64,000 nt of DNA from Tupaia tana (taxonomy: Eukaryota; Chordata; Mammalia; Scandentia; Tupaiidae): contig JAKSZU010000016.1 of NCBI GenBank assembly GCA_026018925.1, forward strand, positions 10,657,940-10,721,939. The letters are read 5' to 3'. The notes below the pieces were generated by a model that ran no database searches, was not told the DNA's origin, and saw only the letters and a list, made by a program, of their open reading frames with translations. Below are positions 10,710 to 57,617 of this stretch, one piece after another; positions within the stretch are counted from its first letter, which is position 1; each line of letters opens with the position of its first letter. The position numbers were made by a program, and so were the translations under genes.

Positions 10710-10888
10710 GGGCCAGCAGGTGGCATGGTGGTTAAGACGCTGGACACTCCCACATTGCCAAATGGCGGTTTGAGTCCTAGACCTGGTGGCTTGCTTTCTC
10801 ATTTTCCCTCTCTCTTTCTGTTTTTATGGTCAAATTAGAATAAATGAATGAGTAAATAAAATAAAATAAATAATTCTCCAAAAAAACG
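10710..10888 (+). mobile_element. tRNA-derived SINE, type B
   Basis: Head GGCCAGCAGGTGGCATGGTG, CT stretch, 'atggtcaaattagaataaat', AATAAA-rich tail. The head contains the CTCF core consensus. Confidence 0.88.
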
Positions 10889-11097
10889 GCTCTGTTGTTT
10901 ATTTTACAGTTCTGGGGATCAGACCATTAAGACGGGTCAGGAAGGGGGTTCTCCTGGTGGCTGAGGCATCCAGTTCCTCGCCTCTTCCAGCTTCCAGAGG
11001 TTGTTGCATTCCTTGGCTGGAGATTGCATCGCTCTGACCTCTGCTCCTGTCCTCACATTTCTCTCTGTGATTCTGACCTTCCTGTCTCTTTCTTTCT

Positions 11098-11376
11098 TCT
11101 TTTTTTTTTTTCCTTTCTTTTTTGAGAGGTTTTTGCTATAGGGCGCGTGCACTCGCCAGACAGACAGAGACAGACATAGAGATAGAAAGCGAGAAATCAC
11201 CCCCCCAGGGGGGATGGCCTCGCCGCGATCCCTTCTCCTCCATTCTCCTCTCGGGATCATGGGCATGCACGCACACACGCCTGGCATGAGTTTAAGCCAC
11301 CGGGTCCGGGACTCGAACCGCGGTCAGCTACGTGGGAGTCCAGCGACATAGCCATTACGCTAACTGCTGGTCCCCT
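11098..11376 (-). mobile_element. tRNA-derived SINE, type A
   Basis: Young, complete copy with internal palindrome 'cacccccccaggggggatgg' and intact head on the minus strand (B box GGTTCGAGTCC). Confidence 0.93.
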
Positions 11377-11536
11377 CTTTTTGTTTTTTTTTAAAGGAAT
11401 TATTTTATTTAACTTTGTTTATTTAATTTGATGAGAGAGAGAAAGTGAGAAAGTAAGCCACCAGGTCCGTGACTCGAACCATGGTTGGCCATGTGGAAGT
11501 CCAGCACCATAATTACCACTGCACCTGCTGGCCTCA
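11377..11536 (-). mobile_element. tRNA-derived SINE, type B
   Basis: It abuts the type A copy. 'taatttgatgagagagagaa' then 'ggtccgtgactcgaaccatg' and the minus-strand head ending at 'gcacctgctggcc'. Confidence 0.85.
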
Positions 11537-11678
11537 TGTCTCCATCATTCACTGATAAGAATCTTCATGATTACAGTCTACTCCCCCTCATAATATAGAG
11601 TAATCTTTCATCTTAAAAATCCTTAGCTTAATCACATCTGTAAAGTGCGTTTGCCATGTAAGAAAGCATATTCAAAGG

Positions 11679-12240
11679 GGACGGCTCTGTGGTCTGGTGG
11701 CTAAGGGAGCCATATCCCTCATGGCTGAACGCTAAGGTCAAGTCCTGGCCCCAGTGGTTTGAAAATACACCAGGCTCATATTTTTCTTTTTTCTTTTTTT
11801 TTTTTTTGGAGAGGTTTTTCGCTATAGGGCGCGTGCACTCGCCAGACAGACAGAGAGAGACATAGAGACAGAAAGCGAGAAATCACCCCCCAGGGGGGAT
11901 GGTCACGCCGCAATCCCTTCTCCTCCATTCTCCTCTTGGGATCTTGGGCACGCACGCACACGCGCCCGGCGTGAGTTGTAAGCCACCGGGTCTGAGACGC
12001 AAACCGCAGTCGACTACGTGGGAGTCCAGCGACATAGCCATTACGCTAACTGCTGGTTCCCCAGGCTCATATTTCTGTGTGCCCCAAATCCCAACAGAAT
12101 GGAGATATGGAGGAGACAGGATTGTGATGTGCCCATTCACCATTGGGGTGGGTGCCTACTCTCTCTCTCTCTCTCTCACTCTCAATCTCAATCTTGGAGG
12201 GCAAGTGCCCTGTGGCAAATTTTTAAAAAAGAAAAGAAAA
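11679..12240 (+). mobile_element. tRNA-derived SINE, type C, split by type A
   Basis: Head 'gacggctctgtggtctggtg' to 11786, resuming at 12063 with 'gtgccccaaatcccaacaga', a CT tract and a 'tgtggcaaatttttaaaaa' tail. Confidence 0.85.
11787..12062 (-). mobile_element. tRNA-derived SINE, type A
   Basis: Complete, inserted in the type C copy in opposite orientation. Repeat AGGCTCATATTT marks the junctions (11772, 12063). It shares 'gagttgtaagccaccgggtc' with 40042-40312, a subfamily mark. Confidence 0.94.
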
Positions 12241-12494
12241 TATATTCACAGGTTTTGGGGAATAGGACAAGGACGTTCCTGGGAGGCAACTGCTCAGCCT
12301 GCTATGATGCCAGAGGGAATTCTCCTCAGGAATTCAATGTGGGGTCCAGGATCCTTCACACCCAGCAGAACCCGTGAAGGGTGTTTCACTGAAATTTAAG
12401 AACCATTAATACATGGCCACATGCCCTCTTCGAAAAAGCGAGCAGCCTAGGAGATTTAAAAACTTCCTCAAAAATCTATTCTAAATCTAAATTA

Positions 12495-12738
12495 AGTTAT
12501 TTTCCTCTACTCGCGATAGAGTACACGTTTGTATGTGAGAACAAGAAAGAGAGGGAGTGAGGCCTGCCCTCCACAGAGGGTGGTCGCTCTGTGACCGCCT
12601 CCTCTATCCTCCAGCTGTTTGGTCTTGGGTACTTCCTTATGGGCCTGGCACATTCAGGCTAACTGGGCCAGGGATTTGAACTGCAGTTGCCATGTGGAAT
12701 CTGGCTTCTCTTGAGCAGTACATTACTTCTGCATCATG
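12495..12738 (-). mobile_element. tRNA-derived SINE, type C, old
   Basis: 'ctcgcgatagagtacacgtt', a GA stretch, 'cctatgggcctggc'-like body and a decayed head. Weakly preserved. Confidence 0.55.
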
Positions 12739-13041
12739 GAAACAGTCCCAAATTTATTCTGTCAAAATCAATGACTAAAGAATTTAAAGTGCGTTTTTTG
12801 CCCTAATGCAATGTTCTAACTTCACATTATTTGACAATATTTTAAAATCTTTTTTGGTTATCAACTCCCTAAGCATTCTACCCTTTCCTCTTACTAGAGA
12901 CCCCCAGCACTTATTTTACTTTTTCCTTGCTGATATTTTTATAATGGCTATCAAAGCCAGCCAGCTGACATGCGTGTGCTCGTGATCTGGGGCTGACTGA
13001 GGCTGGGGGCCGATTGTGGCACTGGGACCTGTTGTGGGTGC

Positions 13042-13042
<1 letters not shown>

Positions 13043-13092
<50 letters not shown>
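13043..13092. repeat. (CT)n microsatellite
   Basis: About 23 CT units, probably from a decayed SINE body. Confidence 0.95.
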
Positions 13093-13094
<2 letters not shown>

Positions 13095-13135
13095 TCACGG
13101 AAAAGGGAAATGAGCAGATTACAAAAAAAAAAAAA

Positions 13136-13222
13136 AGGGACCAGCAGATTGCATAATGGTTACATCGCTGGACTCCCACGTAGTTGACCACGGTGTGAGT
13201 CCAGACCCAGCAGCTTAAAAGG
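13136..13222 (+). mobile_element. tRNA-derived SINE, type A, head only
   Basis: 'gggaccagcagattgcataa' to the 'cagcagcttaaaa' end of the tRNA-like region. The body is missing. Confidence 0.75.
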
Positions 13223-14960
13223 CAAATATGTGGAACTAGTGCTTCCAGGGAATAAGACAAATGAAGATTTTTCTGCTGATAATTCTCCCACCAGATCTCA
13301 TTCTCAAGTTCCTCCATGCACTGAATGTCTACACAGTGTAAGTGAACCATACCCAAACATCTGAATACTATTAGGGTCAACATATTCCTCAATTCCCACT
13401 GAATCTGCCACACAAAGGGAGAAAATCAGAATGGCAAAAAGATCACCTCCTCCCGCACACCTCTGAATGCTCAGATTGAACATCAAACATATAACCCATC
13501 AGATGACTAGAAATCACTGCAGAGGCACAAGAAATATGAGAAACCATGAAAAAACCTCTCCTCCAAGGGAAAAGAATAACTCCTCTTCGTCCACAGACAG
13601 TACAATGGACCTCACAGAAATGTCTGATAAAGAATTTAGAATACTGGGACCAGCAGTTAGCATAATGGCTATGTCGCTGGACTCCCACGTAGTCGACCGC
13701 GGTTCGAGTCCCGGACCCGGTGGCTGAAACTCATGCCGGGCACGTGTGTGTGCGTGCCTAAGATCCCGAGAGGAGAAAAGAGGAGAAGGGATTGCGGTGT
13801 GGCCATCCCCCCTGGAGGGTGATTTCTCGCTTTCTGTCTCTCTGTCTGTCTCTGTCTGGCGAGCACATGTGCCCTATAGCAAAAACCTCTCCAAAAAAAA
13901 AAAAAAAGAATTTAGAATATTCATAGTGACAAAGCTAACAGAGATCCAAAAGAAGAGGGACAATGAACTCTAGAAGAGGCTGGAGAAAAGAGCCGACGAA
14001 TTCCAGGAGGTGACGAAGTTCTTGCATGATCCGAAAGAGGAAATATACACCATAAAAAAAGAACTAGATGGAACTGTTAAAGATGAAGGCTGTAATACAG
14101 GAAGTCAAAACCTCCCTTGAAAGTATTAAAAATGGACTAGATCTTACAGAAAATTGAATCTCAGATGTAGAAGACAAAATCATTGACTAGAAAAATCCAC
14201 CACAAAGACTGAGAAAATAGACCCCCAAAAATGAGAATAGTAGATATCATTAAATACCGAGAAATACTAGATACCATTAAATATCCAAACATCTGGATAA
14301 TGGGTATCCCAGAAGGTGAAAAGACTAATAAGGGCATTGATAATTTATTCCATGAAATCCTAGAAGAAAACTTTCCAAACCTAGAGAGGCATTCAAAGGT
14401 TCAGGCCCAAGAAATGCAAAAGACCCCAAATAGGATCAACCTAAGAAGATGTTCTCCAAGACACATTATAGCCAGATTGACCAAAACCACATACAAAGTT
14501 AGATACTAAGATTGGCAAGAGAGAAACATCAAGTTACCTACAAAGGATATCCCATCAGGCTAACAGTGAACCTCTCATTAGAAACAACGTGAGCAAAGAA
14601 AGAATGGGAAAATATATTCAAAGTGTTGAGTGAAAAAAATTTTCAATCAAGAATACTATACCTGGTAAGATTATGTGAAGAGAAGACAAGAATATTCTCA
14701 AATAAACAAAACCTCAAAGAATGTACTGACATCAGACCAGTTCTCCAAGAAGTTCTGAAGGGAGTGCTATACCAGACACACAGAAAATAAGAGCTCAAAA
14801 ACAATTAAGAAAATGGCTTAATAGTAGGGACAAGTCCAGAGCTGAATGTTACCTTACAGAATTTAAATGGAAAGATCTGACCACAACAGAAGATAAATTA
14901 AGTGCAGGAGACTGAACTAGTGAAATAGAATTTTATGACTTTTGACTAAAAACTTCCCTG
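13223..14960 (+). mobile_element. LINE-1/HAL1-type ORF1 relic
   Basis: The conserved LINE-1 ORF1 core can be read at 14270-14505: NIWIMGIPEGEKTNKGI, then EENFPNLERHSKVQAQEMQK, then TPNRINLRRCSPRHIIARLT. ORF1 proteins are RNA-binding trimers needed for retrotransposition. Upstream, frame pieces (13467-13645) read DLTEMSDKEFRI before a SINE splits them. Downstream, 'gaatactatacctggtaaga' and 'ccagttctccaagaagttct' match the C-terminal ORF1 coding region. Multiple stops make it a dead copy. No ORF2 (reverse transcriptase) follows, which fits a half-LINE (HAL1) or a truncated L1M. Confidence 0.75.
13644..13904 (+). mobile_element. tRNA-derived SINE, type A
   Basis: Complete and close to consensus, inserted in the LINE relic. 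Target duplication AAAGAATTTAGAATA at 13629-13643 and 13905-13919. The B box GGTTCGAGTCC and the internal GCGGTTCGAG context are intact. Confidence 0.95.
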
Positions 14961-15086
14961 ATCTTCTATGCTTTGTTTTCCAGAGTTAAGGATTTTTGTC
15001 TTCTCTTGAGTTGTGGACAAGTCCATGTACTTACTATTCAAATAGAATCTTAACCTGTTTCCTGGCTTTAAGTCTTAAGCAAATCT

Positions 15087-15360
15087 CTCTCTCTCTCTCT
15101 CTTTTTTTTAAGGAGGTTTTCACTATAGGGCGCGTGCGCTCGCCAGACAGACAGAGAGAGAAAGAGAGACAGAAAGCGAGAAATCACCCCCCAGGAGTGA
15201 TGGTCACACCACAATCCCTTCTCCCCCATTCTCTTCTCGGGATCTTAGGCATGCATGCACACGTGCCCGGCGTGAGTTTTAAGCCACCGGGTCCGGGATG
15301 CGAACCGCGGTTGACTACGTGGGAGTCCAGCGACATAGCCATTATGTTAACTGCTGGTCC
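15087..15360 (-). mobile_element. tRNA-derived SINE, type A
   Basis: Complete. Target duplication CTTAAGCAAATCT / CCTAAGCAAATCT (15074-15086, 15361-15373). The B-box variant reads GGTTCGCATCC, as at 28530. Confidence 0.93.
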
Positions 15361-15373
15361 CCTAAGCAAATCT

Positions 15374-15651
15374 TCTAACATTTTTTTATTTTGATTTATG
15401 AAAGCTAAAACTGCCTTTCTTGAAATTTAAAAATATATGAAAACATACCTATTTAATGACCACAGTAAGCTATATAGCCCCAGCTAGGTGCTACTTTAAA
15501 GTATATTCATTCTACTCACAGAGTTTCATGCCTAAAGTCAAACATGTGTTCACAGATATGTATATATCAGCTGAATTTGCTATCAAAAGTAGTTAGATTA
15601 ACTAAGATATTTTGTGAATCAATAAAATTTGGAAGGAAAAAAAAGAATGGA
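15374..15651. other. AT-rich non-coding DNA
   Basis: Ends with 'caataaaatttggaaggaaa', which looks like the A-rich end of an old retrotransposed sequence. Not assigned. Confidence 0.35.
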
Positions 15652-15880
15652 AAACAGCTGCAGATACCAGAGACAGTGTAGAAGGAGGGTGGGAAACAGC
15701 AGAGGGTGAGAAATTGGGGGGAGGAGAGATATATAAGAAACAAGAAATAGAAAATTATTTGTTGATGATAACATGTATGATTAAGCCACTATACAGTATA
15801 TTCTGGATGGGAAATCACATATTGTTTGCTGTGATGATGTTCAGTGAATGAATGTTAAATAAATAAACAAATTTTTGAAA
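15652..15880 (+). mobile_element. Possible LINE-1 3' end
   Basis: 'gagggtgggaaacagcagag', a G-rich stretch, 'attaagccactatacagtat' and a final 'aaataaataaacaaat' tail resemble the truncated element at 46337-46673. The G-rich tract followed by an A-rich tail is typical of LINE-1 3' UTRs. Confidence 0.45.
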
Positions 15881-15882
15881 AA

Positions 15883-15967
15883 GTCACATGTGCGTGTGTG
15901 TGCGTGCCCTCGATCCCGAGAGGAGAATGGAGGAGAGGGGATTGTGGCGTGGCCACCCCCCCGGGGA
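15883..15967 (+). mobile_element. tRNA-derived SINE, type A, internal fragment
   Basis: Only the 'gtgtgcgtgccctcgatccc' to 'ggccacccccccgggg' body section is present; head and tail are both missing. Unusual for simple 5' truncation. Confidence 0.75.
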
Positions 15968-16140
15968 TAACATCAGTGTAATGCACGCACACTTGGATCT
16001 GCGAGGTGCTGCTACATGCTTCTCAGCACCACACAATCAACGCTAGCAGACAAAGCGGGAAGTGACTAGATACAGAGGGGAGGTCACATTTATTTTTTAC
16101 TGAATAATTACTCCAGATATAACAGCTCTTTGCTTTAGAA

Positions 16141-16342
16141 TTTTTAAAAAGAATTGTTTATTTAATTTTACTTATCATTCATCTATCATTTGTTTTAATT
16201 TGACCAGAGAGAGAAAGACCCACACACAGAGGGAAAGTGAGAAAGCAAGTGAGAAAGCAAGCTGCCAGGTCTGGGACTCAAACTGTGGCCAGCCATGTGG
16301 GAGCATCCAGCACCTTAGCCACCATGCCACCTGCTGGCCCCT
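16141..16342 (-). mobile_element. tRNA-derived SINE, type B
   Basis: 'gttttaatttgaccagagag', 'gagaaagcaagctgccaggt' and the minus-strand head 'gccagcaggtggcatggtgg'. A short 'gtgagaaagcaa' unit is duplicated. Confidence 0.85.
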
Positions 16343-16344
16343 GT

Positions 16345-16560
16345 TTTAGAATTTTGTTTTGAAAATTTCTTTCATGAGAGAGTACGAGAGGGAAGCAGGC
16401 ACCCCTGACAGGGTCTCACCAAACTGGGCTCTGTCTCCCTCCTCCAGCCCTTGAAAACCGGTGTTTCAGGTCAACCTGGGCTTCGAAACATGGTTTCCAT
16501 CTGGCACCAGCATCACAGAGGGGCGACCCGCTGCCTGTGTCATCTGGCTGGGCCTTGTCT
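16345..16560 (-). mobile_element. SINE, type D, old
   Basis: 'ctttcatgagagagtacgag', 'gggtctcaccaaactgggct' and a strongly decayed head. Assigned by similarity to 38295-38485. Confidence 0.5.
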
Positions 16561-17100
16561 CAGAATTTAAGATTGGCCTCACAAAAACTAAAAAGAGAAA
16601 AGCCTAATTGAACAGAACGCCCTCCACGGGGACTACCCTAGCCTATTGCACTGTATCTGAGTTGACAAAGAGATTGTGAATGACTCCCGAGTGCCCAAGA
16701 GGGCACACGTATGCATGCGTATGCTTGTGTGCATGTTAGCGTCCATGTACGAACGGAGCCAAGGCTTGCAGAAAACTTACCTAATGCTTCAGCCTTAACA
16801 GAATTTCTCTTCTTTGCAAAAAACTAAAAAAAATAATTCCAGGCAAATCTGGAAAATCTGTTTTTGTCTAAAACCTCATAGAGCACTTTCTCAAGGATTT
16901 ATGATGTCTGAGAAATGTTATACTTTGAGACACCAAAAGCTAAGATGGACAGAAATGAGAAGGCGTGGTTGGAAAGAATTCTACCTCCATATACCATTCC
17001 ACCTCTCAATTTGTTACTTAATATGGGCCTAGGAAGCTACGGAGTAGAGACAAACCTATGTTTTTACCTGGCTATAGGATTTCCAGGAAAGCAGCCTTTA
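16561..17100. other. Single-copy non-coding DNA
   Basis: Short frames on the plus strand (16814-17109) have no recognisable domain. Confidence 0.4.
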
Positions 17101-18376: not shown

Positions 18377-18379
18377 GTT

Positions 18380-19059: not shown

Positions 19060-19251
19060 GGGTTTTTTTCTCTAAGACTTATTGATTTAATTAAATTTAA
19101 TTAATTAATTATCATTACTATTTTTAAATTTGCTATAGGGCATGTGTTCTCACTAAAGACAGACAGGGAGCGAGGGAAGGTGACAAGGTCTGGGACTCGA
19201 ACCATGTTGGCCATGTCCAGTGCCCCAACACCATGCCACCTGCTGGCCTCT
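19060..19251 (-). mobile_element. tRNA-derived SINE, type B
   Basis: 'aaatttgctatagggcatgt', 'aggtctgggactcgaaccat', head ending 'gccacctgctggcc'. Likely target duplication CCGCAGTTT (19051 and 19255). Confidence 0.83.
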
Positions 19252-19641: not shown

Positions 19642-19655
19642 AAGTATAAGCGCCC

Positions 19656-20914: not shown

Positions 20915-21180
20915 TTAAGTTCGTGTGGGAAGACCACCCAAGAAAGAACATTTTCCCTCTCCAATGTATTCCGCCCTTTGCCATGAATATTGATGAACCA
21001 GCAGGTGGCAGTCTAACACCTTATATAGAAAGTTCTAGCGTTGGACCCATAGCAGAGTAGCTAAAAGTATCTCTTTGCTGAGAAAGGCAGTGGTCAATGC
21101 TTGGTCTTTGTCTGGAGTTTATGAGATAATTATAGGATTGTGGTGAAGACAGTGCAGTTAAAGCTGAGATGGATATTCTA
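20915..21180. other. Single-copy DNA with a CTCF-core match
   Basis: ACCAGCAGGTGGCAGTCTA at about 20998-21016 fits the CTCF core without an obvious SINE around it. No coding signal. Confidence 0.35.
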
Positions 21181-23529: not shown

Positions 23530-24650
23530 AACCTTATTTTATCTACCCACTGGCTTCTCCACAGCCTCCAACAGTCTTATGTCCAGAGAACACCTCTTCT
23601 ATTACGATTCCGCAGCTCCAGATCGAAGTTCCCAATATTTGTATCTCTAGTTCAGATTTGCACTGAGTTCCACACCTATGAGGCCAACATTTCTATCTGT
23701 GTCTCCCCCAGGAATCTCAAATTGGTCAGCTCCAAATTAGAGTCATCATCTTTCTTCCTAAATATTTATTTATTTGTTTTAGAGATTTTTTGCTATAGGG
23801 CATGTGTGTTCACCAGAGAGACAGAGAGAAGTGGGAAATCACCCCCCCCCCCCCCCCGCCAGGACAGATGGCCATGCCGCACACAACCCCTTCTCCTCCA
23901 TTCTCCTCTCTGGATTTTGGGTGCACACACACATGCCTGCATGACTTTCAAGCCACTGGGTCCAGGACTCCAACTGTGGTCAACCACGTTGGAGCCCAGA
24001 GCTTCAACCCCTAGGCCACCTGCTGGCCCCCTTCCTAAACCCGTAAGAGCTGCTCTTTTAGGCGTATCCTCTAGGTCGTGACTCCCTGCCAGTTCCATCT
24101 CACATGCACCCGTACTGCCCCAGCCTTTCCCTCCCCATTACCACTGACGTGTCTCAGGTCTCTTTCACTTCTTCCCTAGGTTGTTTCAAGGGTGTTTTAA
24201 GATCACACTATCTCCAGTTTCACCCCAAGCCACCTCCCACACTGCTGCCAAATACAAACAAGATCATGTGACTGCCATAGGTAAGATAGTATCCTTCATT
24301 ATTTAGAGTGCAATCCAGTCTCCATCATCAGCTACAATGCACGCTTTGTGATACGACCTGGGCCTTCGGGTCCACTGTCCTCTTCCTCCATAGATTCTCC
24401 GAAGTATCCATAGTTTCCTGACAGACCCGTCGTGCGGATTCATGGCCCATCCCTTCTCGTGCGCACACATCCCTTCTACAGAGAATCCCTTTCCTCTCTT
24501 CTTGCCTGGACCTAGTGCAAACATAACGTTCTCTTTGAGGCTTCTCTCACACACCCCTTCTCTGTTGCCAGATGTGCTAACAATTGTACCTGAATCAAAC
24601 ATAGCTTTTACTATTGCACGTAAATGACTGTGTTTCTATTATCTTTTGCA
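23530..24650 (+). mobile_element. LINE-2 fragment, split
   Basis: Successive LINE-2 3' landmarks are readable: 'ccaaattagagtcatcatct', 'acactgctgccaaatacaaa', 'caagatcatgtgactgccat', 'atacgacctgggccttcggg'. No intact reverse transcriptase frame. A SINE interrupts it at 23763. Confidence 0.75.
23763..24030 (-). mobile_element. tRNA-derived SINE, A-like
   Basis: The internal C-tract has grown to 16 C at 23842-23857. Target duplication CTTCCTAAA at 23754-23762 and 24031-24039. Confidence 0.9.
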
Positions 24651-27956: not shown

Positions 27957-28460
27957 GGCCAGCCCTTTAGCCTAGTGGTTAAGGGAGTTGGATCCCATGT
28001 GGCTGACTGTGTTTTGAATCCTGGCCCCAGTGGCTTGAAAAACACATTGAGTGCATGCAAATACACATGCACGTGTATGTCTGTGTGCATGCATGTCCAA
28101 AATCCCTACAAGCTGGAGAAATAGGGGCCGGCAGGTGGCGTGGTGGTTAAGGGCACTGGTTTGAGTCCCAGACCTGGAGGCTTGCTTTCTCATTTTCTCT
28201 CTCTCTCTTGCTCTGTCTCTCTGGTCAGAGAGAGGGGTGAGAAGTGAGATTCATGCAGAGGATGCACTTCATTAAAATAAATAAATGAATAAATAAAGTT
28301 AAATAAAATAATTCTAAAAAAAAAGTAAAATAAAAATGATGGGGAAATAGAGAAGTGATTGCACTGTGACCATGGTTCACTGTGGGGTGCTTTCTCCTTC
28401 TCCTTCTCTCTCCATTTCTCTATTGCACTCTGGCAAGTTCGTACACCCTCTGGCAATCAA
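27957..28460 (+). mobile_element. tRNA-derived SINE, type C, split by type B
   Basis: Head GGCCAGCCCTTTAGCCTAGT to 28124; resumes at 28340 with 'gagaagtgattgcactgtga' and ends 'ccctctggcaatcaaaa'. Confidence 0.88.
28125..28339 (+). mobile_element. tRNA-derived SINE, type B, with foreign insert
   Basis: Inserted in the type C copy with target duplication TGGAGAAATAG / TGGGGAAATAG (28114, 28340). The normal 'ctggtcaaattaaaat' junction is split by about 45 bp copied from 26.66 kb. Confidence 0.9.
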
Positions 28461-29256: not shown

Positions 29257-30058
29257 GGGGCCAGAAGATGGTATAGCGGTTCCATCGTAGTTGACCATGG
29301 TTTCAATCCCAGACCCAGTGGCTTAAAACTCACGCTTTCCAGCCTCAGCCCTGGCCCCTGTGGCCACTACGGTGTTGATGCTCAAGAAGAACTGGGGCCA
29401 TTTATGAACTCCGTTTTAAAAAGGGAGCGATGGTGACCAAAAAGGACATCCGTACGTCCAGGCACCCGGAGCTGGCTGACAAAAATGTGCTCAACCTTCA
29501 CGTCATGAAGGCCACTCAGTCTCTGAAGTCTGGAGGCTACATGAAGGAGCAGTTTTCCTGGAGACATTTCTACTGGCACCTTACCAGTGAGGGGATCCAG
29601 AATCTCCACGATTACCTCCACCTGCCCCCCGAGATCGTGCCTGCCACCCTGCACCGAAATCATCCTGAGGCTGGCAGGCCCAGACCCAGAGGTCTGCAGG
29701 GTGAGCAAGGTGGAGCTGACAGGGACACCTACAGACCATGCCGTGCCCCCTGGTGTGGACAAGAAGCTGAGGCTGGGGCCGGTCAGCAACCGCATTTCGG
29801 TTCAGAGGCAGGTTAGTCGTGGACGTAGGCAGCCACCTCAGTAAAGCTGGAGGAGATTATTTTGTGTTGAATAAACTTGTAGCCAGAAAAACCTGAACAA
29901 ACAAAAAAACTCATGCCAGGCGCATGTGTGTGGGGTCCCAAGACCGTGAGAGGAGAATGGAAGAGAAGGAATTGTGGAGTGCCCATTCCCTCAGTGGGGC
30001 GATTTCTTGCTTTGTCTCTCTGATGAGCTCACGTGCCCCATAGCAAAAATCTCTCTCT
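29257..30058 (+). mobile_element. tRNA-derived SINE, A-like, split by the RPS10 pseudogene
   Basis: Head and tRNA-like part 29257-29335; body and tail 29906-30058. The outer target duplication is AAATGCATCAATTATAG (29240-29256), matched by AAGTGCATTAGTTATATAG far downstream at 30531-30549, after two further SINEs. Confidence 0.88.
29336..29905 (+). pseudogene. RPS10: Processed pseudogene of ribosomal protein S10
   Basis: RPS10 is a small-subunit ribosomal protein (eS10). The copy is intronless. It has a short 5' UTR, a region equivalent to the coding sequence at 29372-29844, and a 3' UTR with AATAAA at 29870-29875. Readable blocks include [36 protein letters not shown] and [13 protein letters not shown], strongly RPS10. 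Defects: the first ATG is GTG (29372), a 2-base loss near 29395 shifts the frame, about six codons are missing near 29700, and a 1-base loss near 29792 leads to a stop at 29814. The copy is flanked by AAAACTCACGC (29325-29335) and AAAACTCATGC (29906-29916), with the LINE-1 endonuclease-type context TTAAAA. Non-functional. Confidence 0.95.
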
Positions 30059-32221: not shown

Positions 32222-32475
32222 CGTTGTTTTTAGGTTTTGCCATAAGGCGCATCTGCCCACCGGAGAGAAACAGCGAGACAGAGAGAGGGAAAGTGAAAAA
32301 TCCCCCGGGGGGATGGCCACACTGCAACCCCTCCTCTTCCATTCTCCTCCTGGGATTTTGGGCACACACGCACATGTGCCTGGAGTGATTTGAAAGCTAC
32401 CAGATTTGGGACTTGAACTGCAGTCGACCATGTGGGAGTTAAGCACCGTAACCTCTACGCCACCTACTGGCCCCT
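32222..32475 (-). mobile_element. tRNA-derived SINE, A-like
   Basis: Target duplication ATGTGCAGGT at 32212-32221 and 32476-32485. 'ggttttgccataaggcgcat' and head ending 'gccacctactggccc'. Confidence 0.9.
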
Positions 32476-33020: not shown

Positions 33021-33196
33021 AAAGAATGATTTATTTTAATTTTATTTATTCATTCATTTATTTTAATTTAATCAGAGAGAAACACAGATAAAGAGAAGGA
33101 AAGTGAGAAAGCAAGCTACCAGGTCTGGGCCTAGAACCATGGTTGGCCATGTGGCAGTGTCCAGCGCCTTAACCACCTTGCCACCTGCTGGTCCCT
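33021..33196 (-). mobile_element. tRNA-derived SINE, type B
   Basis: Inverted neighbour of the previous copy, with its T/A-rich tail joined to the other's tail. Head on the minus strand GGGACCAGCAGGTGGCAAGG. Confidence 0.9.
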
Positions 33197-40041: not shown

Positions 40042-40312
40042 TTTCTTCCCTTATTTTTTGGAGAGGTTTTTTGCTATAGGGCGCGTGCGCTCGCCAGACA
40101 GACAGAGAGAGACATAGAGACAGAAAGCAAGAAATCACCCCCCAGGGGGGATGGTCACGCTGCAATCCCTTCTCCTCCATTCTCCTCTCGGGATCTTGGG
40201 CATGCACGCACACGCGCCCGGCGTGAGTTGTAAGCCACCGGGTCCGAGACGCGAACCGCGGTCGACTACGTGGGAGTCCAGCGACATAGCCATTACGCTA
40301 ACTGCTGGTTCC
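40042..40312 (-). mobile_element. tRNA-derived SINE, type A
   Basis: Near-perfect young copy ('gagttgtaagccaccgggtc' subfamily). Target duplication CTCCTAGAACTTTTTTT at 40025-40041 and 40313. Confidence 0.96.
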
Positions 40313-40330: not shown

Positions 40331-40578
40331 TAAAGAGTTTTATTTACTTATTTATTTTTCTATAAGGTGTGTGTGCTCACCAGAGAGATAGAGAGACAGA
40401 AAGTGAGATATCACTCTCCACAGGGGATGCCCACGCTGTAATCCCTTCTCCTCCATTTTCCTCTCAGAATTTTGGGCACACGTGCACACGAGCCTGGCAT
40501 GAGTGTTAAACTGCTGGGTTCAGGACTTGAACCACAGTAGGAGTCCAGCAATGTAACCATGACACCATCCACTCGTCC
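40331..40578 (-). mobile_element. tRNA-derived SINE, A-like
   Basis: Older copy in the same site: CTCCTAGAACTTT precedes it at 40313 and follows it at 40579. Confidence 0.92.
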
Positions 40579-44551: not shown

Positions 44552-44730
44552 AAAAAATAAATATTTTATTTAACTTTATCTATTTATTTATTTTAATTTG
44601 ACCAGAGAGGGACAAAGTGGGGTGTGGGGGCAAGAGAAGTAAGAAAGCAAGCTGCCAAGTCTGGGACTTGAACCATAGTTGGCCACGTGGGATTCCAGCA
44701 CACTTAACCACCACGCCACCTGCTGGCCCC
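44552..44730 (-). mobile_element. tRNA-derived SINE, type B
   Basis: It follows the duplicated target; TAGAATTTTT appears again behind its head at 44731. Minus-strand head GGGGCCAGCAGGTGGCGTGG is an intact CTCF-core copy. Confidence 0.92.
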
Positions 44731-45461: not shown

Positions 45462-45700
45462 GGACCAGCAGATGGCATAATGGTTACATCGCTAGTCTCC
45501 CACTTAGTCGACCATGGTTCAAGTCCCAGACCTGGTGGCTTAAAACTCACACTAGGTGCATGTGCGTGCATGCCCAAGATCCTGAGAGGAGAGTGGAGGA
45601 GAAGGGACTGTGGCGTGGCCATCCCCCCTGGGGGGTGATTTCTCGCTTTCTGTCTCTGTCTCTCCAGTGAACGTATACACCATACAGTAAAAATCTCTCT
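45462..45700 (+). mobile_element. tRNA-derived SINE, type A
   Basis: Head 'gggaccagcagatggcataa', decayed B box; internal 'ccatcccccctggggggtga' intact; end altered to 'ccatacagtaaaaatctctc'. Confidence 0.9.
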
Positions 45701-47559: not shown

Positions 47560-49215
47560 TTTTCATTCCAAAATTTTATGACCATATGGATTCCAGAGTC
47601 CTTGCGACGTCTGGCACCATCCCACACTTACCCAAAGGCCTCGTCTGACTCGGAGACACTCGCCTGTCCTCGTTGTCTGTGCTCCTGGCCTGCCGGGGCT
47701 CTCGGGTCTTCAGTGCCTCCTCTCACTCCACACCACGGGGCCACTCCTGCCACTGTCACCAGAGCCGCCCACGTGCCAGATGCAGCCGGCAATCTTGGCC
47801 CTAACCTTAGCAGCATTGCCGGTCCACTCTGTCTCTCCTCCAGTCCGCTTCTCTCAGCATCTGGGACTCCTGGCTCTTCTGGTCTATTCCTACCTCATGG
47901 GCCACTCCTCTTTTGTTTTGTTTTGTTTTGATTTGTTTTGTTTTGTTTGTTTTGTTTGCCATCAGGCATGTGCACTTGCCAGAGTGAGGCAGAGGGAGAG
48001 AGTGAGGGAAAGTGAGAAATCACTCCTCAGGGGGATGGCCACACCACAATCCCACCCTCCTCTTGGGGTTTTGGGCAGGCAATGTGCCTGGCAAGATTTT
48101 CAAGCCACCAGGTCTGGGACTCAGCCGTGGTCGGCCATGTGGGAGTCCAGCGCCTTCACCACTACGCCACCTGCTGGCGGAGGTCTCGCCTTTAATCTTC
48201 TTTACTTGGCCTTTTCCTCATTTTGGCCTCTGTATTTGTTAGGTCCCGGCTTGCCTGGAGCTCTGTCTTCAGCCTTCTTTATCCCTGCAATGGTTTGGAG
48301 GACAGTTTATTTTCTGCTGATATCTACATTTACATATCTGCCAGATCCGGCCTAGAGTATTCAGACACTCCCACATGCACTTTGCTAGCTCATAGCCTTC
48401 TCAACCACAGCAAAGCCAAAACCCGCTCCCCGTGCTCAGCCCCTCCTCCAGCGCCACACCGTGGCCCTTACTGTCGCAGTCCATGACTGTTAGTTGCTTA
48501 GACCACAGCCGAGAACTGAGTGGGCTCCCCTCTCGTCTCACCTCCACACACGCTCCATCAGTAGGTTCTGTTTTCCCCCTTACAATCCACCCCACATCCA
48601 GCCACTGCTCCCCACTAATAGCACTTCACCTCCGGGTCCAGACCCCACTTTTGCCTCTCACCCAGGCCACCACGGTAGGCTCGGAACCGTCTCCACTTCC
48701 ATTCTTCCTTCTTTCAGAGCAGGCATGGACATTATGTCTGTGTTCATGTCATTTCTTGTGCAAAGAAAAAAACATTCCTCTATTGGCTTCCCACTGTACT
48801 TAGGAAAAGAATCCAGACTCTTTAACAGCCGGAGTCATCGTCTCCCCCCACCCCGCGATCTCATCCCGCACCACCCCACCTTACTCATCTCCCTTGCCTG
48901 CACCAGCTCGTCCCGCCCCCAGGCTGTGTCCTTGCGGGCTGCTCCGCCTGGGGTCCGCTTGCTGGCTGTTTCATGCGGCTGGCTCCTTCCTGACACTGAC
49001 CTCTCCTCAGAGGGGCTCTCCACCCACTTTACCCAATAGCAACATGCTTCATTTTCCTCCTAGCACACGTAGCGTTGGCTCATGTCCCACGTGTCCTGCC
49101 GGACCTCTTCCGTTGGAGTGTAAGTGGCACTGAGCCTAGGGGACTCGTTTACCTCTTCCATGAACTGGCATGTTCCTGGCTTTTAGAACAGTGCTTGCTG
49201 TGCTAGAGAACCCAA
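47560..49215 (+). mobile_element. LINE-2, long decayed 3' part
   Basis: 'ctgctgatatctacatttac', 'ctattggcttcccactgtac', 'aaagaatccagactctttaa', and 'gttcctggcttttagaacag' follow the LINE-2 order. Open frames here (such as 48494-49039) are chance frames in CT-rich LINE-2 DNA. A SINE splits it at 47912-48177. Confidence 0.75.
47912..48177 (-). mobile_element. tRNA-derived SINE, A-like, with (TTTTG)n tail
   Basis: The tail has become a TTTTG pentamer repeat (47912-47960). Minus-strand head CCGCCAGCAGGTGGCGTAGT keeps the CTCF core. Confidence 0.88.
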
Positions 49216-49805: not shown

Positions 49806-50125
49806 TGAGTTGTCAAAAAAAAAAAATCATGACTTGGGGACCAGCAGGTGGCATGGTGGTTAAGGTGCTGAACACTCCCACATGGCTGACCACGGTTTGA
49901 GTCCTGGACCTGGTGGCTTGCTTTCTCACTTGCTTTCTCTGCCTCTCCAAACCCTCCCCCCCACCCCCCACCCCCCGTGTATCTCTCTCTGGTCAAATTA
50001 AAATAAAATGAATGAATGAATAAATAAAATTAAATAAAAGTTCTTTAAAAAAATATTTTAAAAAAAATCATGACTCCTTTTTTTCTGTGTGAACATGTGC
50101 CATGACTTTTCTGACAACCCAGTGG
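49806..50125. mobile_element. Palindromic mariner-like MITE, copy 4, split by a SINE
   Basis: Left arm ACTGAGTTGTCAAAAA near 49803 and right arm CATGACTTTTCTGACAACCC near 50100 are inverted partners; a type B SINE sits between two ATCATGACT copies. Confidence 0.65.
49836..50068 (+). mobile_element. tRNA-derived SINE, type B
   Basis: Head 'gggaccagcaggtggcatgg' with CTCF core; C-rich tract at 49957-49976. Target duplication AAATCATGACT (49825, 50066). Confidence 0.9.
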
Positions 50126-50604: not shown

Positions 50605-50760
50605 AATAATTTTTATTTTATTTATTTATTATTATTATGTAATTTGACCAGAGAGAGAAAGAGAGGGAGTGAGAAAGTAAGCTGCCAGGTCTAGGACTTG
50701 AACCACAGTCAGCCATGTGAGAATCCAGTGCCTTAAGCATCATGCCACCTGCTGGTCCTA
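50605..50760 (-). mobile_element. tRNA-derived SINE, type B
   Basis: Tail-to-tail with the type A copy. TTTAAAG occurs before the pair (50308) and after it (50761), so the pair may share one target duplication. Confidence 0.85.
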
Positions 50761-52340: not shown

Positions 52341-52344
52341 TTGG

Positions 52345-52389
52345 TTTTTGTTTCTGCCATAGAGTACATGCGCTTATCAGAGAGAGAGA

Positions 52390-52421
<32 letters not shown>

Positions 52422-52605
52422 ATAAATCATTTTCCAGGGGGGGATGGCCATGCCACAATCCTTTCCCCTCCACTCTCCTCTTGGGATTTTGGGCACACAT
52501 GTGCACGTGCCTGACATAGCTCTCAAGCCACCAGACCTGAGACTGGAACTGCAGTCAGCCATGTGAGAGTCCAGTGCCTGAAGCACCATGCCCCCGGCTG
52601 GTCCC
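52345..52605 (-). mobile_element. tRNA-derived SINE, A-like
   Basis: 'gtttctgccatagagtacat', (GA)n to 52422, 'ggggggatggccatgccaca', head ending 'gcccccggctggtccc'. Confidence 0.87.
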
Positions 52606-52607
52606 AT

Positions 52608-52790
52608 ATATTTTGTAAGACAGGGTCTCACCATGTCACAATCCTCCTGCCTCATGCTCCTGATTGGCTGGACTACAGGTGCACGCCACTGCACACAGCC
52701 TTTCAGGTTGGACTAGGAATCGAACCAGGCCTCCCGTGTGGCCCAGGCCCATGGAGCACAGTATCTTAGCAGGGAACACAACTGCAGCTA
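52608..52790 (-). mobile_element. Composite tRNA-like / 7SL-like SINE
   Basis: Plus-strand text 'agacagggtctcaccatgtc', 'ggctggactacaggtgcacg' and 'ccactgcacacagcc' is the reverse complement of an Alu/B1-type 7SL left end. It is followed by 'taggaatcgaaccaggcctc', the reverse complement of a tRNA B box (GGTTCGATTCC). Read on the minus strand: tRNA-like part, then 7SL-like part, then A-rich end. Confidence 0.65.
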
Positions 52791-52811
52791 GGCCTGTAAT
52801 TTATTGATATC

Positions 52812-52833
52812 ACACACACACACACACACACAC
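52812..52833. repeat. (CA)n microsatellite
   Basis: About 11 units, next to the composite SINE. Confidence 0.9.
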
Positions 52834-53064
52834 GGCAAACTGGTAATGCATATGTCTCAAATATTATCTCAGATGCTAAAAGCATGGTGCTAATAAAATG
52901 AAGAATTTCAGATCACTTAATTTCTGTAAGAATAAAAACTCCCCAATATCTTCTGGTGGTTGGAAAGGGAACTTAAGGAGAGGCTGAAGGAGTGACTTAT
53001 CCCAGGATCCCAGCTGAATAAACAAAGCAAGTTCTGTTCTGGACTGCAGGTGCATACACTGCAC

Positions 53065-53166
53065 ACAGTGGCATGGTGTGAGTTTCAAGCCTCCACGTCC
53101 AGGACTCGAACTACAACTGCTCATGTGGGAGTCTAGCATCTCAACCACCACGCCACCTGCTGGCCC
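53065..53166 (-). mobile_element. tRNA-derived SINE, head fragment
   Basis: Only the tRNA-like part: 'gtgtgagtttcaagcctcca' to 'cacgccacctgctggccc'. Its minus-strand head carries the CTCF core exactly. Confidence 0.85.
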
Positions 53167-53589
53167 TTGAATATTATCTTTAGCTTATGTTATAATTTCC
53201 GTTGCCAGATGACTAGCTAAAATATGGGTGCATGATCAATTATTGGGGTTAAATATTAGACAATGATATTGACTATATAGTGCCTTGCTTTACCATTTAT
53301 ATCATGATGTGGATTTACAGGTATAGAAAATAGTTTTTAAAGCCCTCCTTTTGTGTTACATTAGACATTTACCCTTAGTTACATGTGTTCTCAGAGACTC
53401 CTATGGGGAAGAAGAGAAAAGGAAATGAACTGAAGGCGTGGCCCAGAGAGAAGCCACTGAGCTGGCAAATGGGAGAAAGAACTCAGAAGAGGTCTCCCTT
53501 CCTTTATTCATTTCACAGAGATTTGTTGAGCACGTACTATATGCCAGATCCCAGGCTAGGTAAACAGCAGTGAACAAAGTGGAATTGTC

Positions 53590-53842
53590 GGGACCAGCAG
53601 TTAGCGTAATGGCTATGTTGCTGGACTCCCACGTAGCCGACCACGGTTAGAGTCCTGGACCCAGTGACTTAAAACTCATGCCAGGCGTGTGCGTGCCCAA
53701 GATCCCAAGAAGAGAATGGAGGAGAAGGGATTGTGGCGTGGCCATGGGGGGGGGGGGGGTGATTCTCGCTTTCTATCTCTCTGTCTCTGTCTGGCGAGCG
53801 CACGCGCCCTATAGCAAAAACCTCTAAAAAAAAAAAAAAAAA
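53590..53842 (+). mobile_element. tRNA-derived SINE, type A (first of tandem)
   Basis: Outer target duplication AAAGTGGAATTGTC at 53576-53589. The internal palindrome is replaced by a G14 run (53746-53759). Confidence 0.94.
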
Positions 53843-53845
53843 AAG

Positions 53846-54115
53846 GGAACCAGTAAGTTAGCATAACGGCTATGTTGCTGGACTCCCATGTAGTCAACCT
53901 TGGTTCGCGACCCGGATCCGGTGGCTTAAAACTCACGCCGGGCGCGTGTGCATGCGTGCCCAAGATCCTGAGAGGAGAATGGAGGAGAAGGGATTGTGGC
54001 GTGACCACCCCCCCCCCCCCCCCCCAGGGTGATTTCTCGCTTTCTGTCTCTATGTCTCTGTCTGTCTGGCGAGCGCAAGCGCCCTATAGCGAAAACCTCT
54101 CAAAAAAAAAAAAAA
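53846..54115 (+). mobile_element. tRNA-derived SINE, type A (second of tandem)
   Basis: It starts in the A tail of the first copy; the right target duplication AAAGTGGAATTGTC lies at 54116-54129. Contains a C18 run (54008-54025). Confidence 0.94.
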
Positions 54116-54489
54116 AAAGTGGAATTGTCTATGCCCAATGAATTTTATATTTTAGTGGGACAGATGGTAAATACGAGTAAATCATACATATTTGAAATCG
54201 ACCTGAAACGAGGTGCACAGGGGGCTGTGTTGGAGGGTCAGAAGGGGGAAGGCATTTCCCAGGAAGCAGGGTTTGAAGCTGAGGCCTGAAAGAGGAGCTG
54301 GCCGTTTGAAGAGGGTGGGAAGACGGAACGTTCCGCGAAGGCCCCGGGCAGAAGGGGAAGAGCTTGGTGTTGCACCGTTTGAGCTTCCAACGCTCTGGCG
54401 CAGGTGGTCGAGGAGGAGCGAAGCGAAGACGTTGAGCATTGCAGGAAATGAGGCTGGAGCAACAGACGCAGGCTTTGTTCGTTTCTTGT

Positions 54490-54717
54490 GTTTCGGGTTT
54501 TTGCTATAGGACAGGCGCACTTGGGTGGTCAGAGAGGGAAAGCGAGACATCACCGCCCGGGGATGGCTGTGCTGCACCCTTTCTCCTCCGGTCTCCTCCT
54601 GGGGTTTTGGGTGCGCGCACGTGCGCAGCTAGGTTTTCCAGCCGCCAGGTGCCGGACTCGAATTGCAGTTCATCATGCGGGAATCGAGCACCTTAACCAC
54701 ACCACCTGCGGGCCCCC
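54490..54717 (-). mobile_element. tRNA-derived SINE, A-like
   Basis: 'gggtttttgctataggacag', 'gacatcaccgcccggggatg', head ending 'accacctgcgggccccc'. CpG-rich, so perhaps not heavily methylated. Confidence 0.85.
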
Positions 54718-55330
54718 AGACACAGTGTCCGTTAAAAAACATGTACGTTTTGTATTAAGTGAAACGGACACTATAGAGGGAAGTAGGGAAGCAAGGAGCC
54801 TTGAGCATATCCCTGAACGGGCCCTCCGTTCTATGTGTGGGGAAGCTGCGAGGTCAGCCTCCAAGGGAAGACGGCAGCCTCGGCGAGACGGGAGACTAGC
54901 GACTCCCGAGAAGTCTCATGTAGGGGAGGGCGGGGGCAATGACCAGGGATGACTCCCAGGTTCCTGACCGGACTAGCAGAGAGAGCTTGCTACGTTTTGT
55001 AAGGCGCAGGGAGGACAGGGGTTTGCAGAGGGAATCTGGAGCTGGGTTTTGGAAATGGAGTGGGACCCTTGCCCGCAGCTGGCTGACTGCTCCCCTGCTG
55101 GGTGCGAGGGCCCGTCACTCTCACCCCTGCAAGTACATGGCCTCTCAAATACTGCACTTCTGAGCAAAGCCTTTCCCTACTGTTCCGTATTCCAACTAGA
55201 TCTGGTCTTCATGCTTTTAAAAACCACTCTCTGGACCTTAATTTTTTTTTTATTTTTATTTTTTTGCTGTCCAAAGACTTCAGTGTGGGCTTTGTCTCCT
55301 AGCTAATTCGAATCATTGCTTAGTAACACA
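54718..55330. other. Single-copy non-coding DNA
   Basis: No SINE; mixed GC content; frames without recognisable domains. Confidence 0.4.
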
Positions 55331-55336
55331 AGCCCT

Positions 55337-55548
55337 GGTGGCCAGCAGGTAGCGTGGTGGTTAAGATGCTGGACTCCCACATGGCTGATGGTGGTTTGAG
55401 TCCTGGATCTGGTGGCTTGCTTTCTCACTTTCCCTCTCTCTCCCTCTCTCTTTCTCTCCTAGTAAGTGCATATGTCCTATAACGAATTTAAAAATATATG
55501 TAATAATAACAAAGTTAAATAAAATAATTCTTTAAAATTAAAGAAAAA
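55337..55548 (+). mobile_element. tRNA-derived SINE, type B
   Basis: Head GGCCAGCAGGTAGCGTGGTG, CT stretch, 'cataacgaatttaaaaatat'-type end resembling type A's 'cctatagc'. Confidence 0.87.
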
Positions 55549-56130
55549 AAGAGTTAACATATTAAACACACACACACACACACAAACCCTTTTCTCAGCA
55601 GAACTCCCAATTTCTCATATTTTTTTTTTATTCTTCCAACTGTGCAATCATTCATTCAACAGGTTATAGTGCACTGCCTTATGGGAAGGGAGGGATGCAG
55701 GACAGTTTCATTGATAAAACCAGGAAACCATCTCTGAAACATGGTTTATGTTTCCAGGGCCATTTCCCTCTACTATGGTCACTTCAGTTGGATCAACAAA
55801 GATAGCACTGTCATTCTAGGTTTGGAAGGAAGTGCAGAGAGAGCCGACACTGAGTCATTCACCCAGGAGGTGAGGTTTTTGGTTGAGCGCTGAGGGAGCT
55901 GCCTAGAGCCGTGAGAGGTAGCTTGCCACCTGTGGAATCGAGACACTTCACTCAGCCAAAGCCTGGGTTTGGACGGAGTCGTTGGAAACTGTCCAGTTAG
56001 GTCTTTTCTCTTGACTTTCCTGGATGTCATCCCTCACCCCCAATATGTTATGCTTATTTTTTCATATTGGATCATTTCTAGGGATTTGCATTCAGAGTCA
56101 CAGAACTTTTTATTTTTCATTGTAGATACC
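55549..56130. other. Single-copy non-coding DNA
   Basis: (CA)n at 55566-55584; otherwise no recognised element. Confidence 0.35.
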
Positions 56131-56132
56131 AT

Positions 56133-56208
56133 GTTAGATCGTTGGGAAAGTCATGATGTATTTTTCTATGTAAAAATGCATCACGACTTTCCCCACGACC
56201 CAATACTT
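56133..56208. mobile_element. Palindromic mariner-like MITE, copy 3
   Basis: GTTGGGAAAGTCATGATGTA pairs with ATGCATCACGACTTTCCCCA; shortened loop CTATGTA. Confidence 0.75.
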
Positions 56209-56257
56209 TTCGACTCTAACCTTTTCACTGGGTTCTTCTTTTAAGATACAGGTTCCA

Positions 56258-56512
56258 GAGCCAACCCTGGGGCCCAGTGGTTATGGGAGCTGGATCCCAT
56301 ATGGCCAACTGTGGTTCGAATCCTAACTGTGAGAGCTTGAAAAACATGCTGTGTGCATGCGTGCCCCAAATCCCAACAGGACGGAGAAATGCATGAGAAG
56401 GAATTGAGGCATGATACCCTAAGTGTCTGTGCTTTCTCCCTCTCCCTCTGTCTTTCTCTGGTGAGCACAGGTACCCTATGGCAATGGGAAAACCCCCCCA
56501 AAAAAGTAAAAT
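56258..56512 (+). mobile_element. tRNA-derived SINE, type C
   Basis: Head AGCCAACCCTGGGGCCCAGT, B box GGTTCGAATCC intact, 'gccccaaatcccaacaggac', 'taccctatggcaatgggaaa'. Confidence 0.88.
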
Positions 56513-56514
56513 GG

Positions 56515-56944
56515 AGTTTCCAGTTTTCTGCTGAGATTTCTCCATCTGTTTCTGCATTATGAACATCTTTCTCTTTAATTGTTTGAACCTATTTATAATA
56601 ACTGCCTTAAAGTTTATATCTATTAATTCTAACATCTTGATTATCTCAGAAAATGTTTCTATTAACTTTTTTCTTAACTATGGATTATACTTCCCTGCTT
56701 CTTTATTTTTATAGTAATTTTTTGGCTGTATATGGGCCTTGGGGATGATACATTGTAGGCACTTTGGAACCTCTTGCACTCCTTGAAGAGTGTTGGTTTT
56801 TGTTCTAGCAGGCAGCTGAATTATAGCTGACCAACTTTAACTGTGGATGCGTGGTTTTACATGTATTTAGGGAAGATCTATTTTGGTTCTGCTCTTGCTT
56901 CTGTAGTAAACCCCTCAGTCCTGGACCAGAGTCCCTTCTAGGAT
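56515..56944 (-). mobile_element. LINE-1 (L1M-type) 3' region
   Basis: 'ataactgccttaaagtttat', 'attaattctaacatcttgat', 'gatgatacattgtaggcact' and 'gaagagtgttggtttttgtt' resemble antisense L1M 3' sequence. Family level uncertain. Confidence 0.5.
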
Positions 56945-57148
56945 TTTTTTCTTTCTTTTGATTTTACTTATTTATGTATTAGTATTCTTTTAAAAATTTG
57001 CTATAGGACACATGTGCTCACCAGAGAGAGAGAGAGGGAGAGAGAGAGAGAGAGAGAATGAGAAAGCAAGCCGCCAGGTTTAGAACTTGAACTGTGGTCG
57101 ACCATGGGGAGTCCAACGTCTTAACCACCATGCCACTGGCTGCCTGTC
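56945..57148 (-). mobile_element. tRNA-derived SINE, type B
   Basis: 'aaaaatttgctataggacac', (GA)n at 57022-57057, 'ccgccaggtttagaacttga', head ending 'gccactggctgcctgtccc'. Confidence 0.85.
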
Positions 57149-57328
57149 CCCCCTCTCCCAGGATTTCGAAGGAAAGTCTGAGGTGTTTCCAAAGTCCCTC
57201 TGACATACAGGTTTCCAAATGTCAAAGTTGGTTTCTCTTGTGGCAGGCAGCAGGCATCTCTGTGTAGCCCTGTCAGACTTCTGGGCTCCTCAGTCGGCCC
57301 GACACATGCTCACTTTGAAAGTCAGCAG

Positions 57329-57617
57329 AGGGCCAGCAGGTGGCACTGTGGTTAAGGCACTGCATCCCACATAGCACACACTGCATTTTGAGCCCCAGAC
57401 CCACAACTTGAAAACCACACTAGGCGCATGTGTGTGTGTACCCAAAACCTAGAAAGAAAAAAGGAGGAGAAAGGTTTGCGGTGTGGCCATTCTTCCTTCA
57501 TCCCCTGGGGAGTGAAATCTCACTTGCCCCCTCTCCCTGTCTCTCTCCAGGGAGCAAATGTGCCGGATGTCAAAAAAAACAAAACCAAATTTAAAAACAC
57601 TTAAAAACAAACAAACA
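57329..57617 (+). mobile_element. tRNA-derived SINE, A-like, with strong CTCF-core head
   Basis: Head GGGCCAGCAGGTGGCACTGT. Flanks GAAAGTCAGCAG (57317) and AAATAGTCAGGAG (57620). End: 'gtgccggatgtcaaaaaaaa'. Confidence 0.85.
57330..57348 (+). promoter_or_regulatory. CTCF-like motif inside a SINE head
   Basis: GGGCCAGCAGGTGGCACTG fits the 19-base CTCF consensus at all but the first position by my count. It arose in a retrotransposon. Binding not shown. Confidence 0.45.

Follow-up and report, generated by a model that had tools for sequence, protein, structure and literature searches.

A likely new tRNA-like SINE family with a near-consensus CTCF core in Tupaia tana, and loss of the core in its youngest subfamilies

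Overview

The DNA analyzed here (hereafter the window) is a 64-kb stretch of the Tupaia tana genome (GenBank assembly GCA_026018925.1, contig JAKSZU010000016.1, positions 10,657,940 to 10,721,939), in which tRNA-like heads of short interspersed elements (SINEs) carry an exact core of the CTCF motif, CCASYAGRKGGC. These elements likely form a new family of a CTCF-carrying kind that is already known, and the family stands out by the strength of its consensus match, its copy number and the recorded loss of the site. The sequence match, its genome-wide numbers, the marks of retrotransposition and the loss of the core in the young lineage are observed directly. From the sequence, we consider it fairly probable that the core acts as a near-consensus CTCF M1 motif, located at the 5' end of O, M and early Y heads and bound in a minority of copies.

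Core-bearing SINE heads in the window

The core was found in 15 exact matches, whereas 100 dinucleotide shuffles of the window gave 0.14 matches on average and two at most. In 14 of the 15 cases the core starts a tRNA-like SINE head with a B-box-like GGTTCRAGTCC downstream; the lone core outside SINEs is located at 20998 on the plus strand. The typical layout is GGG-CCAGCAGGTGGC-RTGGTGGTTAAGG...GGTTCRAGTCC, and altogether 89 heads were detected by an iterated profile search. A preliminary description of this DNA had named seven cores. All seven places hold the word CCAGCAGGTGGC, two of them at exactly the position given (33180 and 44715) and five shifted by 1 to 3 bases; the exact starts are 10713, 49841 and 57333 (plus strand) and 33180, 44715, 48166 and 53152 (minus strand). 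Further exact cores start at 16326, 19235, 24015, 32459 and 50744 on the minus strand and at 45465, 59273 and 20998 on the plus strand. The GTGG or ATGG said to follow the core is present in 6 of the 14 SINE cores, including four of the named seven, while the rest continue with ATAA, GTAG, ATGA, AAGG, CTAG or ACTG. The copy near 57330, singled out earlier as the best match over 19 bases, is indeed the top one of the window (57330-57348, 22.6 bits, p=1.2e-8).

The heads are tRNA-like by their alignments, which contain a GGTTCRAGTCC-type B-box together with an A-box region, and the exact CTCF core belongs to the family consensus on the A-box side, as had been proposed. When ARAGORN was run with a lowered threshold on the O_B consensus, a 74-base tRNA-like fold was among the matches listed. 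At its default threshold ARAGORN reported no tRNA in the window; no Rfam family matched the window at gathering score, and the Rfam tRNA model did not match one 301-base stretch at E values up to 10. Serine tRNA is one candidate for the parent: among ten tRNAs compared it had the highest score with the consensuses of E, O_A, O_B and M, with a margin of 1 point for O_B, but the Y consensuses favored glycine, and the scores of 34-44 compare with a mean of 24.5 and a maximum of 50 in 200 shuffles.

The copies bear the marks of retrotransposition, namely high copy number, A-rich tails and target-site duplications. Duplication-like repeats flank 28 of 72 copies, some of the 28 being A-rich, versus 1-4 of 72 in five shuffled pairings. 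None of twelve working SINE consensuses (rodent B2, dog, cat, horse, cow, hedgehog, shrew, mole, bat, Afrotheria, armadillo and rabbit) gave a good match, the closest being the dog element at 18.1 bits; the lack of recognizable kinship agrees with the suggestion of an independent expansion. Two head patterns had no copy in a viral contig collection. The window also holds copies of MIR (best E=5.6e-22 with a working consensus, versus 1.4 for the reversed control), which identifies the DNA as mammalian.

Genome-wide abundance

The assembly comprises 2,948,224,869 bases (2.95 Gb) in 1,198 contigs, and word counts of repeats in it may be lower bounds. The core occurs 262,814 times, compared to about 6,400 expected by extrapolation from the window shuffles, so the very large spread suspected earlier holds. 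Two SINE-type words, CCAGCAGGTGGC with 135,804 and CCAGCAGATGGC with 93,655 copies, together make up 229,459 occurrences, or 87% of all genomic cores. The coreless word CCAGCAGTTAGC, at 322,430 copies, outnumbers each of the other three words counted. CCAGCCGGTGGC, a CpG-containing word looked up for group E, has only 1,585 copies. The reversed-pattern control for the core gave 1,410 occurrences and contains CpGs that are absent from most patterns searched; since reversed-pattern controls understate chance, the shuffle figure was used as the chance level.

A genome sample of 24 stretches of 10 kb each was chosen by place, 20 of them within the first 10 Mb of one contig. It contains 203 SINE heads in 240 kb, versus none in the reversed-sequence control. 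Of its exact cores, 22 of 24 are in heads and the other two resemble decayed heads by eye. The window is thus SINE-rich even for its own genome (89 heads in 64 kb), with a core density 2.6 times the genome mean (about 234 versus 89 per Mb).

Strength of the CTCF match

Sites were scored with a working version of the JASPAR matrix MA0139.1, whose column sums (908-913) are as expected of such counts. The O head consensus 19-mer GGGCCAGCAGGTGGCGTGG reaches 17.2 bits (p=8e-7); the M and Y0 consensuses also carry the motif (15.9 and 15.2 bits), whereas Y2 and Y3 fail at 4.3 and 2.7 bits. At p<1e-4 the window has 67 matches versus 12.8 expected, and SINE heads account for 40 of the 67; at p<1e-5 there are 24 versus about 1.3, with 21 in heads and on the same strand, and at p<1e-6 seven, with five in heads. 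The corresponding numbers in the sample are 150 versus 48 (63 in heads), 35 versus 4.8 (23 in heads) and 10 (four in heads). Copies also exceed the threshold above chance beyond the window: of 202 sampled heads, 60 pass p<1e-4 and 22 pass p<1e-5.

The SINE consensuses used as yardsticks were working versions, of which the B2 stretch containing its M1 site agrees with the template printed in PMC7717908. The M1 site of mouse B2 scores 8.1 bits, with a place at 10.5 bits on the opposite strand, and the head site of dog SINEC_Cf 5.8 bits; the best places in ten other consensuses do not exceed 9.4 bits. The consensus match is therefore much stronger here than in the scored mouse and dog elements. 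Use of a human matrix appears appropriate, as the visible part of CTCF encoded in the genome agrees with the human query sequence at every residue as far as the exon ends. This part covers residues 105-219 of a 233-residue query, with 62 of 62 residues identical in one alignment and 57 of 62 in a second, where all mismatches lie past the apparent exon end.

Loss and gain of the core across subfamilies

Heads were grouped by the bases outside the CTCF footprint, and divergence was measured there with CpG sites excluded. The joint set contains 291 heads, comprising the 89 of the window and 202 of the 203 sampled (one short or N-bearing head was dropped); four other Y and twelve unclassified heads were set aside from the groups in Table 1.

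Table 1. Consensus CTCF score and divergence of head groups in the joint set
Group	Consensus score (bits)	Divergence	Heads
E	11.2	23.5% +-1.3	46
O_A (including unclassified bodies)	17.2	21.2% +-1.1	53
O_B	17.2	16.2% +-0.9	57
M	15.9	17.5% +-1.9	23
Y0	15.2	13.5%	16
Y1	10.8	7.5%	19
Y2	4.3	6.6%	37
Y3	2.7	2.0%	24

From O_A to Y3 the CTCF score falls with divergence (Spearman 0.94 over seven groups, E excluded), where the Y subgroups were split on core letters, so that their scores are built in but their divergences are not. In the window taken separately, Y heads are less diverged than O_B and O_A (both p=4e-7) and M (p=0.004). The values of M and O_B overlap, and either of the two may be the older. 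Nested insertions point the same way as the divergences: the target-site duplication of the Y3 copy at 40309 (minus strand) takes in both the A-tail and the 3' duplication that belong to the M copy at 40575, and a short-body copy is inserted in an E copy. Taken together, the score series and the two insertions make the loss of the core in the young lineage firm. The wave that spread the core is old; with the core lost from the youngest subfamilies, a recent or ongoing wave is not supported.

The gain of the core from an older E-like head is likely, though less firm than its loss. The E consensus is unstable, at -8.2 bits in the window, -5.0 and 10.5 in window and sample, and 11.2 in the joint set, and no more than 3 of its 46 copies reach p<1e-4.

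Proposed explanation and alternatives

The match has its origin in the RNA polymerase III (Pol III) A-box region, whose first bases are GGTGGC; joined to CCAGCA on the left, they make up the core, which explains how a motif for CTCF can develop out of a tRNA head. CCAGCA differs by one base from the CCAGCC that stands in the inferred consensus of E, probably the older group, and a single change therefore probably created the core. Amplification of the SINE then carried it to a quarter of a million places. In later source copies GGTGGC became GATGGC, GTTGGC and GTTAGC, which leaves the youngest, little-diverged copies without a match. Most likely, a minority of middle-aged copies, those unmethylated and little decayed, would bind CTCF through M1 alone, as reported for dog SINEC_Cf, and would be candidates for scattered boundaries or loop anchors, while the remaining copies would decay neutrally. 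Binding of the heads is plausible, and both it and any effect on folding are inferences from the sequence.

Several points weigh against this explanation. The consensus fits poorly at positions 1 (G), 17 (T) and 18 (G) of the matrix, which is itself a working version. The prediction that copies would score above threshold holds for O and M in the window (33 of 49 heads at p<1e-4; unclassified heads 3 of 5) and not for E (0 of 12) or Y (2 of 23). Of the 291 heads in the joint set, only 98 pass p<1e-4 and 43 pass p<1e-5. In the electrophoretic mobility shift assays of one study (PMC5498337), the sole M1 replacement that abolished binding was that of the first three bases, TGG, where the SINE has GGG or GGA; altering one or a few of these bases left binding intact. 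Other three-base M1 replacements were harmless in vitro (PMC5498337), and therefore the Y-lineage change need not abolish binding either. M2, placed 5-6 bases upstream of M1 in the same source, would by position fall in the flank rather than inside the element, because M1 starts only a few bases into the head at most. Methylation of the consensus CpG at C15-G16 is possible. Finally, the overlap between the divergences of E and O_A means that the gain is not firmly dated.

A quite possible alternative, to which we give somewhat less credence, is that the core is a coincidental by-product of the tRNA-like head and its A-box, hardly bound by CTCF owing to methylation, heterochromatin or competition, for example through ADNP/ChAHP-like repression. 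GGTGGC comes with the A-box in any case, the joint E consensus already reaches 11.2 bits, and rare-variant tests show no constraint on the core. The C15-G16 CpG of O copies has become CA 41 times and TG 29 times (p=0.19), and ADNP is described as limiting CTCF occupancy in the abstract of PMC13061322. However, lower scores were obtained for the sites of B2 and of the dog element, families that are nevertheless bound in vivo, and an absence of selection is compatible with binding.

Selection may also have driven the loss of the core, if CTCF-bound copies were harmful or poorly transcribed through competition between CTCF and TFIIIC at the A-box and escapees took over; we regard this as unlikely. 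The scores descend stepwise (17.2, 15.9, 15.2, 10.8, 4.3 and 2.7 bits) with falling divergence, apart from the overlapping M and O_B, and the coreless word reached 322,430 copies. Moreover, a G to A change at position 13 of the matrix breaks the CTCF core but leaves the A-box (TRGYNNARNNGG) intact. On the other hand, between O_B and Y3 the footprint did not accumulate changes more densely (6 of 19 positions) than the remaining positions did (14 of 63; p=0.54), and an equally deep fall in score results from 67% of random sets of six changes within the footprint. Loss therefore needs no selection, and drift of a few source genes is enough.

We consider it very improbable that individual SINE cores are widely maintained by selection as CTCF sites: in 21 short-body O copies of the window the core is less diverged than the rest (22 of 231 versus 149 of 942 non-CpG sites, p=0.016) and 12 of these O_B copies pass p<1e-5 versus 5.7 simulated (95% range 2-10), but the difference is absent from O_A and M (p=0.42 and 0.76) and from rare variants, whether in O_B (4 of 231 versus 29 of 942, p=0.37) or in the joint set (10 of 279 versus 33 of 1487, p=0.2, in the opposite direction). 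The initial positive result was thus not upheld and is probably explained by subfamily structure.

A bolder scenario, for which we see a small chance, combines both ends of the series: the lineage would have gained the core by one substitution beside the A-box and later shed it, escaping CTCF because CTCF and TFIIIC contend for identical bases, and would have left one of the largest mammalian SINE-borne dispersals of CTCF-competent sequence (about 230,000 exact core words of SINE type). If so, the genome keeps dated copies from before the gain to after the loss.

Features of the window

The coordinates of the core-bearing heads and of related copies are listed in Table 2.

Table 2. CTCF cores and selected SINE heads in the window
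Feature	Position	Strand	Core	Score (bits)	Remarks
SINE head O_B, short body	10711..10792	+	10713-10724	16.5	19-mer 10710-10728
SINE head O_B	16259..16339	-	16326-16337	16.5	
SINE head, short body, part deleted	19184..19248	-	19235-19246	16.4	
SINE head, long body	23950..24028	-	24015-24026	12.3	group intermediate between M and O
SINE head O, long body	32394..32472	-	32459-32470, CCAGTAGGTGGC	16.9	candidate 10-base target-site duplication
SINE head O_B	33113..33193	-	33180-33191	16.7	
SINE head O_B	44649..44728	-	44715-44726	17.2	consensus 19-mer
SINE head M	45463..45541	+	45465-45476, CCAGCAGATGGC	15.2	
SINE head O, body type not classified	48102..48177	-	48166-48177	18.0	
SINE head O_B	49839..49919	+	49841-49852	15.5	perfect 16-base target-site duplication
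SINE head O_B	50679..50757	-	50744-50755	15.8	
SINE head O, body type not classified	53087..53165	-	53152-53163	17.2	consensus 19-mer
SINE head, diverged long-body copy	57331..57402	+	57333-57344	22.6	group unclassified; 19-mer 57330-57348
SINE head M	59271..59349	+	59273-59284, CCAGCAGATGGC	16.1	
Exact core outside SINE heads	20998..21009	+	20998-21009	18.9	19-mer 20995-21013
M-type head	40508..40575	-	decayed		A-tail and 3' target-site duplication lie in the target sequence of the Y3 copy (40309)
Y3 head, youngest type	40232..40309	-	lost, CCAGCAGTTAGC	2.7	inserted at 3' end of the M copy
E-type head	27958..28036	+	none		
Short-body copy	28127..28183	+	decayed, CCGGCAGGTGGC	13.9	interrupts body of the E copy at 27958

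Some CTCF-like sites lie outside SINE heads. The 19-mer at 20995-21013 could be an ordinary CTCF site. Another, TCGCCGCTAGAGGGCGCGC at 9619-9637 (plus strand, 17.9 bits), is located in a GC-rich, CpG-bearing stretch. In one sampled stretch (L011, positions 4392-4565), four sites of 16-20 bits are spaced by 31, 62 and 62 bases in GC-rich, tandem-looking DNA. An open frame at 29379-29816 (plus strand), with a broken SINE head shortly upstream at 29259, resembles by eye a processed pseudogene of a ribosomal protein, for which RPS10 is the candidate.

Comparison with known CTCF-carrying SINEs

Rodents, dog and opossum have had their CTCF maps rewired by SINEs. Schmidt et al. 2012 described CTCF binding at rodent B2, dog SINEC_Cf and opossum MAR elements (PMC3368268). 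In Tupaia tana a single lineage records the loss, and probably the gain, of the site across ordered and dated subfamilies. Because the match is strong, the numbers are large and the series is ordered and dated, two questions become testable in one genome: the age that a SINE-borne CTCF site needs before it is used, and the cost or benefit of such a site for a SINE whose Pol III promoter overlaps it. Our search of the literature on CTCF with SINEs found no such family, which is weak evidence of novelty; Choudhary et al. 2023 covers human, mouse, dog and macaque (PMC9902604), a paper on an Atelerix SINE mentions CTCF (PMC12026660), and the 12-mer CCAGCAGGTGGC was found in one paper that, by its title, concerns angelfish germ cells.

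The dog and opossum elements have M1 only (PMC3368268). A close parallel is the canid SINEC_Cf, which is derived from tRNA-Lys and, as here, carries M1 without M2 (PMC3368268, PMC9902604). Its best match in the working consensus runs from head base 2 over the start of the A-box, as in the present family, but the score is 5.8 versus 17.2 bits, the head sequence differs and so does the host, as far as known. Well under a thousand bound CTCF events were reported for dog (PMC3368268). Opossum MAR1_Mdo, a member of the MIR family, is likewise a lineage-specific SINE with M1 only (PMC3368268), likened here by its description rather than its consensus, and belongs to a different SINE family. Rodent B2/B3 elements also dispersed a CTCF motif (PMC3368268, PMC5880236), although B2 has both M1 and M2, with M1 near base 72, whereas here M1 occupies the 5' end and has no M2 beside it in the element. 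PMC5880236 describes a B2_Mm1 lineage of Mus caroli that became a CTCF carrier through one base change, a parallel to the one substitution between the E and O consensuses. In Mus caroli, however, a young lineage gained the site, while in the present family the young lineage lost it.

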